53,108 nt of DNA from a virus. The notes under the pieces were generated by a model. That model was not told the origin of the DNA. It worked only from the letters and a program-made list of their open reading frames with translations, and did no database searches. The stretch covers positions 1-53,108 of IMG/VR virus record IMGVR_UViG_3300023178_000064. One strand, 5' to 3'. Made by a program: the position numbers and the translations under genes. Numbering within the stretch: the first letter of the stretch is position 1; every line of letters begins with the position of its first letter. This document shows, piece after piece, positions 17,400-19,636 of the stretch.

Positions 17400-18578
17400 A
17401 TGATGTCAGAACTATTAGAAAGTCGCTGGACAGAAACCAAAGACGCTCTTCTTGAAGGCCTGGACGGTAACAAGAAGGCGGTAATGGCTGCCACACTAGA
17501 AAACACTCGTAAGTATTTGTCTGAGAGTGCAACAGCTGGAGCAACATCCGCTGGTAACGTAGCTACACTAAACCGTGTAATCCTACCAGTTATCAGACGT
17601 GTTATGCCAACTGTTATTGCTAACGAGCTAGTTGGTGTTCAACCAATGACTGGCCCAGTTGGCCAAATCCACACTCTACGTGTTCGTTACGCTGAAGCTT
17701 TTGATAGCACAAGCGGAACTGATACTGTAGCAGGTGAAGAGGCACTTAGCCCATTCAAGATTGCGGAAGGATATTCCGGTGCAGCTGACGATAAAGCCGC
17801 TACAACAGCAGCTTTAGAAGGTCAAGCTGGACGTAAATTGTCCATCCAAATCTTAAAGCAAACTGTAGAAGCTAAATCCAGAAAGCTATCAGCTCGTTGG
17901 ACTTTTGAAGCTGCACAGGATGCACAATCAATGCACGGTATTGATGTTGAAGCAGAAATTATGGCTGCATTAGCACAAGAAATTACCGCTGAGATTGACC
18001 AAGAAGTTTTAGCAAGCCTAAACAGCCTAGCTGGTAATGCTGCTGAAACATATGACCAAAGTGCTGTATCAGGTACAGCAACATTCGTTGGTGACGAGCA
18101 TGCTGCATTAGCTGTTCAAATCAACAGAGTTGCAAACTTGATTGCACAGCGTACACGTAGAGGCGCAGGTAACTACGCTGTTGTTAGCCCATTTGCGTTA
18201 ACAATTCTACAAAGTGCTACAACTTCTGCGTTCGCAAGAACAACTGAAGGTACATTCGAAGCACCAACTAACACTAAAATGGTTGGTACATTGAATAACG
18301 CAATGAAAGTGTACGTCAACACATACAGTGCAGACGATGCACCAGTACTTGTTGGTTATAAGGGTTCAAGTGAATCAGACGCACCAGCGTTCTATTGCCC
18401 ATACATTCCACTAATGTCAAGTGGTGTTGTGCTTGATCCAGCAACATTCGAGCCAACTGTGTCATTTATGACCAGATATGGTTACGTTGAGCTATCAAAC
18501 ACAGCTTCATCACTTGGTAACGCAGCAGATTACTTAGGTAAAGTTGCGATTACTAACGGAAGCGTGAGCTTTAGCTAA
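17400..18578 (+). CDS. 23: gp23 major capsid protein
   Basis: The 392-aa product forms the capsid shell with an HK97-like fold. Characteristic segments include NRVILPVIRRVMPTVIANEL, VGVQPMTGPVGQI, RWTFEAAQDAQSMHGID and SFMTRYGYVELS near the C terminus. The N-terminal region before LSE42 is probably the propeptide, since T4 gp21 cuts after hydrophobic-x-Glu and the text continues SATAGATSAGN. Two ATGs (17400 and 17403) are possible after AAGGAG; I give the first. It is shorter than T4 gp23 (about 521 aa), as is usual in marine relatives. A strong terminator follows at 18597. Confidence 0.97.
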   Translation: MMSELLESRWTETKDALLEGLDGNKKAVMAATLENTRKYLSESATAGATSAGNVATLNRVILPVIRRVMPTVIANELVGVQPMTGPVGQIHTLRVRYAEAFDSTSGTDTVAGEEALSPFKIAEGYSGAADDKAATTAALEGQAGRKLSIQILKQTVEAKSRKLSARWTFEAAQDAQSMHGIDVEAEIMAALAQEITAEIDQEVLASLNSLAGNAAETYDQSAVSGTATFVGDEHAALAVQINRVANLIAQRTRRGAGNYAVVSPFALTILQSATTSAFARTTEGTFEAPTNTKMVGTLNNAMKVYVNTYSADDAPVLVGYKGSSESDAPAFYCPYIPLMSSGVVLDPATFEPTVSFMTRYGYVELSNTASSLGNAADYLGKVAITNGSVSFS

Positions 18579-18634: not shown

Positions 18635-18706
18635 TTACTTGTTCATTACATACATTGTAACTTCAAAGCCAAAACGCATTTCTGTATAGCTAGGTTTTGT
18701 CCACAT
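18635..18706 (-). CDS. pqqA: PqqA, coenzyme PQQ precursor peptide
   Basis: The 23-codon gene is too short for ordinary gene calling. The product starts MWTKPSYTEMRFGFEV and continues TMYVMNK. It matches the PqqA family over its whole length (typical MWxKPxxxDxRxGFEVTxY). Glu15 and Tyr19 form the E-x3-Y pair that the radical-SAM enzyme PqqE crosslinks, with PqqD as chaperone, before the peptide is trimmed and oxidised to pyrroloquinoline quinone. A strong AAGGAG lies 6 nt before the ATG. It is alone on the minus strand between gp23 and a divergent RNA. No pqqB-E is visible in the window, so PQQ synthesis would need host enzymes. This is seen in sequence plus known family chemistry; expression is untested. 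Confidence 0.9.
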   Translation of the reverse strand: MWTKPSYTEMRFGFEVTMYVMNK

Positions 18707-18788: not shown

Positions 18789-18816
18789 TTGACTTTTATT
18801 TTAAAGATGTTATATT
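18789..18816 (+). promoter_or_regulatory. Sigma70-type promoter of the intergenic RNA
   Basis: TTGACT (18789-18794), a 16-bp spacer and TATATT (18811-18816) predict a start near 18823, exactly where the closing helix of the RNA begins. A second TTGACA at 18743-18748 has only a poor -10. Confidence 0.7.
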
Positions 18817-18822
18817 AATAAC

Positions 18823-19075
18823 ATAAGCAACAAAGACTTAGCTAGTCAATGTTTATAGTGCAAGGAAGAGGCGTTTACCAGAGCGTCGAACTTGACTGTT
18901 TAGGGGTGGTACCCAGGTGTTGTACTGGAAACAGGCAATGTCACATCGCTCTACCGAGCGGAAGCAGGTTGTCGCGGAGATGAAATGGTATTTGGTCCGT
19001 GGCTTGTAGGTGTAACCGAGTCCTACCTATTTTGCTTATTCTTAAAGCCCGCCACTGTGCGGGCTTTCTTCTTAT
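18823..19075 (+). ncRNA. Putative structured small RNA of unknown family
   Basis: The ends pair: ATAAGCAA (18823-18830) with TTGCTTAT (19032-19039). Internal elements include CTG-GAAA-CAG (a GNRA tetraloop hairpin extended by TTG/CAA), GGGT-GGT-ACCC, GCTC-TACC-GAGC nested within CATC/GATG, and GTAGG/CCTAC near the 3' side. It has its own promoter and ends in a strong terminator at 19044-19075, so it is a free-standing transcription unit of about 250 nt. It carries no convincing protein frame and no tRNA T-arm, tmRNA, SRP, 6S or RNase P signature that I can identify. It lies divergent to pqqA. Function is unknown; a link to PQQ control or to host RNA mimicry is only speculation. Confidence 0.65.
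19044..19075 (+). terminator. Intrinsic terminator of the intergenic RNA
   Basis: A perfect 9-bp GC-rich stem (AAAGCCCGC, 19044-19052; GCGGGCTTT, 19059-19067) with loop CACTGT is followed by a T-rich tail CTTCTTATTT. Confidence 0.9.
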
Positions 19076-19077
19076 TT

Positions 19078-19085
19078 GATAAATA
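19078..19085 (+). promoter_or_regulatory. T4-like late promoter box GATAAATA
   Basis: GATAAATA (then C) is one mismatch from TATAAATA and starts right after the RNA terminator. It would transcribe the block beginning at 19181 through a leader of about 90 nt. Confidence 0.6.
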
Positions 19086-19089
19086 CTTG

Positions 19090-19180
19090 TGTCAGATAGT
19101 GTGCCGCAAGGCGGACTTATGCTGTTACCCACAGCGTACCGGATAGAACCCGGATAGGACTACTTTATAGGAGAAAACAA
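19090..19180 (+). other. Leader of the 19181 gene
   Basis: The untranslated leader contains CCGC-AAG-GCGG, GCTGT-TACCC-ACAGC and a CCGG...CCGG pair, then AGGAG 8 nt before the ATG. The hairpins are short; no known riboswitch motif was recognised. Confidence 0.35.
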
Positions 19181-19636
19181 ATGGGAAGACCACTTAATAA
19201 AAGATACTTTGGACCTGCTACAGCAGGTGGCAATGAAATCAAAGTAGATTTCTATGATGGCACATCAGCTGTTCTAGAAGGCTACATTGTAAAACAATTA
19301 GGATCTAAAAAGTTTCGTGTTGCCGCAATTGGCACACCAGGAACTACATACGATCGTTTTTTAACTACAGGAAAATTACCTGCTGCTTTAACAGGCGAAG
19401 AAATGTGCATCAGTGTTAAAGGTGATGACGGTGAAACTTACGGCGTTAGTAAAATTTCAGGACGTAAGGCAACTATCATTGCTCACAGTGCAACAGGTTC
19501 GAATGCATTAAACGGACAATCGATTCCATGGAACTTCACAGTAAGTGCTGTTGACGGTGCTGTACAAGTTGAAGAAGCTGGTGATGATGACGTACTACTT
19601 GGTACTGACGACGACGACTTCACTGAAGACGCATAA
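19181..19636 (+). CDS. Conserved virion protein of marine T4-like phages
   Basis: The 151-aa product begins MGRPLNKRYFGPATAGGNEI, a start I recall from uncharacterised virion proteins downstream of gp23 in cyanophages and related marine phages. The sequence is mostly beta-strand, with a glycine-rich body and a very acidic tail (EEAGDDDVLLGTDDDDFTED). Being directly after the capsid gene and its own late promoter, it could be a capsid decoration or fibre-base protein, but no domain supports a choice. AGGAG precedes the ATG by 8 nt. Confidence 0.65.
   Translation: MGRPLNKRYFGPATAGGNEIKVDFYDGTSAVLEGYIVKQLGSKKFRVAAIGTPGTTYDRFLTTGKLPAALTGEEMCISVKGDDGETYGVSKISGRKATIIAHSATGSNALNGQSIPWNFTVSAVDGAVQVEEAGDDDVLLGTDDDDFTEDA

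Follow-up and report, generated by a model that had tools for sequence, protein, structure and literature searches.

The manA RNA motif has been a riboswitch candidate, with no known ligand, since 2010; the pseudoknot in the description of that year carries a question mark (Weinberg et al., 2010; PMC2864571). The family (RF01745) is typed as Cis-reg in Rfam and has been described in possible 5′ UTRs, a position that is its typical context and lies outside the sequence–structure definition of the family. Of 96 canonical cyanophage copies, 66 lack a terminator and meet an open frame within 100 nt, while a terminator follows 16; the copy in Pelagibacter phage Mosig (L081, 6021–6228; 64 bits) is leader-like, without a terminator and with a rubrerythrin gene beginning just 3′ of it. 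A leader role is therefore real somewhere in the manA family. A sigma-70 match of at least 10 of 12 positions was found for 82 of 92 canonical copies, with an exact TTGACA in 74. In the cyanophages P-HM1, S-SSM5, and P-RSM4, manA lies directly behind gp23 and has a strong sigma-70 promoter, and in P-HM1 a terminator hairpin stands 3′ of the RNA; in P-SSM2 and P-SSM7, manA is located elsewhere. Two annotated hypothetical proteins, PHM1_121 (P-HM1) and SSSM5_127 (S-SSM5), overlap manA almost completely (sites at L321 1167–1343 and L322 1205–1411) and may be spurious open frames rather than proteins. Mosig also encodes a permuted tmRNA (L081, 2587–2925; RF04321, 93.6 bits) a few kb from its manA.

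The DNA analyzed here, hereafter the window, is a virus record of 53,108 nucleotides (IMG/VR IMGVR_UViG_3300023178_000064); coordinates refer to its plus strand unless noted. An RNA of the manA family (18823–19041) lies directly downstream of a gp23-type major capsid gene (17400–18578; Pfam Gp23 PF07068, 329 bits). It resembles described manA RNAs (Weinberg et al., 2010) in matching the family at full length, in the order of its helices, in a putative pseudoknot-type loop contact, and in its occurrence in T4-like phages; it differs in scoring below the Rfam cut-off, in having its own promoter and terminator, and in having no gene within its unit. Cyanophage copies are much nearer the Rfam consensus (169–186 bits), and the Mosig copy shares ~76% identity with the window RNA across 200 nt. 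Set against the customary view of manA as a switch before a gene, the stand-alone arrangement is unexpected, and in its sequence context the RNA looks like a gene in its own right.

A second catalogued RNA, the glutamine riboswitch (RF01739), is unrelated in fold and was not found in the window, but in several relatives it occupies this interval next to gp23, lying between gp23 and manA in L019, L030, L037, L038, L053, and L009; RNA elements and small genes therefore seem to concentrate in this region, as in a hotspot.

Assignment to the manA family

An Rfam scan without curated cut-offs returned an RF01745 match at 18836–19036, covering model positions 1–192 of 192 with 47.4 bits (E 4.3e-11 for 571 bases scanned); against the window's own record the E value was 9.5e-13, and none of 14 control genomes had a match. 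This full-length match is significant. Its score does not reach the curated cut-off (55.2 bits), and a scan at default cut-offs therefore misses manA: such a scan of the window returned freshwater-2 alone and nothing at the RNA. That silence is what favors the proposal, made in a sequence-only reading of the locus, of a new phage RNA family. The same reading had called for a covariance-model search against Rfam and had named a significant match with an established family as grounds for giving the proposal up; the search returned such a match. Together with relatives at the same locus that pass the cut-off, and with an independent model (R1, below), it makes a new family very improbable.

Relatives of the RNA were found behind gp23 and in Mosig. 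A gp23 protein search retrieved 80 viral contigs, pattern scans of viral contigs led to a sister branch (clade 2) and to the canonical cyanophage type (clade 3), and 186 distinct copies were used. Gp23-adjacent relatives at the same locus, ~80% identical to the window RNA, exceed the RF01745 cut-off; seven relatives lie above it (55.5–79.9 bits), and their close homology to the window RNA therefore makes the latter a sub-threshold homologue rather than a cut-off-passing member. None of the five clade 2 copies tested reaches the cut-off, which thus overlooks one branch of the family; a BLAST search with a clade 2 copy gave no match in the phage collection.

The covariance model R1 was built from seven close relatives, without the window and L011, a near-twin of the window with 97.6% identity. 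It recovers the window RNA at 188.5 bits, as well as four sister-branch copies (49–58 bits), L037 (90.4 bits), and the S-SSM5 cyanophage manA (35.2 bits), and five gp23 loci that lack the RNA gave no match. Of the canonical copies in the R1 search, that of S-SSM5 was the one recovered, and the reverse link to the canonical type therefore depends on a single copy. Judged by these sequence and model comparisons, the window RNA is a divergent homologue of manA, a family already catalogued, and what is new would be its organization.

Other sub-threshold Rfam matches nearby (S774, Trp_leader, Leu_leader, RyhB, and others) had E values of 0.25 or worse, fell mostly on the terminator or within the AT-rich flanking sequence, and were attributed to chance. 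ARAGORN found neither a tRNA nor a tmRNA, and the earlier judgment that the RNA is not a tRNA, tmRNA, SRP, 6S, or RNase P RNA was correct. The RNA is not covered by a long open frame on the same strand.

Conserved structure

Single-sequence folding is unremarkable (z −1.0 for the RNA, −1.7 for the RNA with its terminator); folding energy alone is not decisive, and relatives were therefore needed to support the structure. Pair structures were drawn from the window and from L198, and their pairs were tallied on MAFFT alignments that had not been adjusted to these structures. In clade 1, the branch of the window (n = 9), pairing holds in 90.2% of pair cells, and 30 of 75 pairs are changed on both sides, as compared with 36%–47% paired and 6–12 double-change pairs when partners are slid by 1–3 columns. 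In clade 2 (n = 28), 92.3% of cells are paired and 36 of 58 pairs are changed on both sides, against 33%–44% and 8–13 in the slid controls. Covariation scores follow the same pattern (clade 1, 0.339 vs. 0.14 shuffled and at most 0.08 slid; clade 2, 0.439 vs. 0.185 shuffled and at most 0.11 slid); the slid controls retain the relatedness of the sequences, and the shuffles ignore it. The structured RNA of about 250 nt that the sequence-only reading had placed at 18823–19075 is thus confirmed by covariation, not by single-sequence folding; building a model from homologues and checking it for covarying pairs, as that reading had also suggested, revealed abundant covariation in both sets of relatives.

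The outer helix P0 pairs ATAAGCAA (18823–18830) with TTGCTTAT (19032–19039), exact reverse complements that agree with the 8-bp helix described earlier. Its pairs are kept in 6–8 of the nine clade 1 relatives; it is the least tested helix, with no aligned double changes in clade 1 (n = 9), and in Mosig an alternative AAUGC/GCAUU, identified by eye only, takes its place. The 5′-end hairpin P1 (18831–18851) shows double changes in both clades. The closing helix P2 (18855–18858 with 19027–19030) is paired in every cell and hardly varies. P3 (18861–18864 with 18891–18894) is double-changed in clade 1, as is P4 (18870–18876 with 18881–18887), which caps it and is strongly supported in clade 2; P2 and P3 are invariant in clade 2 and therefore provide no covariation test there. 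P5 (18896–18901 with 18962–18967) encloses the hairpins P6 (18903–18914), P7 (18916–18942), and P8 (18947–18960), and all four contain double changes. P7 carries the GAAA tetraloop that had been noted from the letters (CTG-GAAA-CAG at 18925–18934, loop 18928–18931). The P6 loop (GGTA, 18908–18911) contacts the P8 loop (TACC, 18952–18955), with 94%–95% of cells paired and a G-C to A-U exchange between the branches that reflects few independent events; this contact may be the pseudoknot of the 2010 description. In P9 (18971–18978 with 18996–19003), six of eight pairs are double-changed in clade 1; its inner stem P9b (18983–18986 with 18990–18993) is weak, with 52% of cells paired in clade 2. P10 (19006–19010 with 19022–19026) is paired in every cell and contains double changes. 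The consensus manA helices are thus backed by covariation, with P0 and P9b weaker.

These compensatory changes bear on whether the RNA could be a cyanophage-type 5′ leader or stability module whose gene has been lost here, and which now persists as a spacer or a remnant in decay. The downstream neighbors of the copies are highly variable (genes, tRNAs, and terminators), as such a history might leave them; however, compensatory change indicates that both branches are still under selection although the unit contains no gene, and the promoter and terminator are retained in most copies, so that we regard a remnant as improbable.

Transcription signals and neighboring elements

A sigma-70-type promoter (TTGACT and TATATT separated by 16 nt, a TG preceding the −10; 10 of 12 consensus matches) at 18789–18816 places the expected transcription start at ~18823, on the 5′ strand of P0, where it had been predicted. 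Promoters with at least 10 of 12 matches lie directly upstream in 77 of 80 clade 1 and 2 copies (4% of shuffles reach 10), and the spacing between promoter and RNA is identical in 76 of them. The unit ends in an intrinsic terminator (19044–19067) with a 9-bp stem and a T-rich tail; a structured RNA with its own promoter and terminator is thus the part of the sequence-only reading that stands, and the new family gives way to manA. A terminator follows the RNA in 56 of 76 clade 1 and 2 copies versus 2 of 304 shuffled tails, or in 48 of 76 versus 9 of 380 with a stricter detector, and its sequence is very diverse (36 different arms among 48). About a quarter of the clade 1 and 2 copies have no detected terminator; what follows is a tRNA or other RNA-like sequence and, in rare cases, a gene. 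Two unannotated sequences recur just 3′ of the RNA in terminator-less copies, at L097, L161, L167, and L152 and at L086, L124, L150, L158, and L172; one begins ACTTGACAGTAATMGGATTACAGTCAGA, and the other contains GTGCATAGGACAAG within a long inverted repeat. These may be further structured RNAs.

After the terminator, a late-promoter-like motif of the next gene, GATAAATA (19078–19085), precedes the leader RNA freshwater-2; the described late promoter of T4-like cyanophages is NATAAATA (PMC2984593). The motif is not enriched by count within the window (8 found vs. 10.6 expected), and the argument therefore rests on its position in relatives: [GT]ATAAATA occurs within 220 nt downstream in 58 of 76 clade 1 and 2 copies, versus ~3% of shuffles. 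Freshwater-2 (19100–19183; RF02980, 76.6 bits, cut-off 49.9), a catalogued leader RNA, has a 3′ end that coincides exactly with the ATG start codon of the next gene (19181–19636; MGRPLNKRYFG..., no family match), and it precedes this same gene in many relatives. A literature search with limited terms found no paper on freshwater-2.

The same arrangement can be read as a cis-acting transcriptional riboswitch or attenuator, in which the manA core senses a ligand and sets read-through of the terminator into 19181–19636. The candidate status of manA in the motif's published description (PMC2864571), the start of the RNA at a promoter with a terminator directly 3′, and the many canonical copies that are gene leaders all favor this reading; nonetheless, several observations make it unlikely. 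Terminator arms vary freely, and the RNA shows no preference for its native arm over one exchanged with another copy (native pairing stronger in 19 of 48; p 0.30 with the final 80 nt, p 0.60 with the RNA as a whole), so that this test of 48 copies gave no sign of the alternative aptamer–terminator pairing characteristic of riboswitches. P0, with its last base at 19039, does not overlap the terminator, whose first is at 19044, and in the predicted fold of the window the RNA structure and the terminator coexist. In addition, the RNA does not occupy the 5′ UTR position associated with Cis-reg typing, as a terminator, a late motif, and a separate leader precede the next gene.

The association with gp23 extends beyond the window. 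Gp23 lies upstream in 46 of 57 clade 1 and 2 copies that were retrieved by RNA pattern, not via gp23, and among 49 gp23 loci whose downstream sequence extends for 1.5 kb or more, 16 have the RNA. In the window, a gene for the 23-residue pyrroloquinoline quinone precursor peptide PqqA lies on the minus strand at 18635–18706 (TIGR02107, 47 bits, cut-off 20; PF08042, 46 bits), divergent from the RNA. A phage pqqA from Lake Baikal has been described (PMC7678222). Matches between this stretch and methylophage records suggest that the host is a methylotroph; manA goes unmentioned in the methylophage paper PMC9004378.

A putative RNA gene in T4-like phages

With its own promoter and terminator, followed by a late motif and a leader for the next gene, manA thus looks like an independent RNA gene here. 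We consider it probable, with moderate confidence, that a T4-like phage here encodes a divergent manA RNA as a gene of its own, in the interval separating gp23 from the following gene, yielding a stable RNA of ~250 nt. Host RNA polymerase with sigma-70 would transcribe it from ~18823, probably from early infection or by constant synthesis, and the product would be stabilized by P0 at its 5′ end and by the terminator hairpin at its 3′ end. Because no gene follows in its own unit, the RNA might act in trans on a protein, RNA, or small molecule rather than switch the gene behind it, a step we propose with less certainty. Features favoring this stand-alone RNA gene are the host-type promoter, an RNA start within a few bases of that expected, the conserved multi-helix core with its loop–loop contact, and the intrinsic terminator, followed by separate late-promoter and leader elements. 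Weighing against it are the sub-threshold Rfam score of the window copy, the majority of canonical copies and the Mosig copy that lead into genes without a terminator, and the quarter of clade 1 and 2 copies in which no terminator was detected.

More tentatively, and at somewhat less than even probability, the manA of T4-like phages that infect aquatic bacteria may be mainly an old RNA gene, strongly transcribed and acting in trans, that is linked to the region downstream of gp23, the cyanophage leader copies being secondary. If much of the family consists of such stand-alone genes, searches for a ligand that center on the downstream gene would be misdirected, and the question would become which protein or RNA manA binds.
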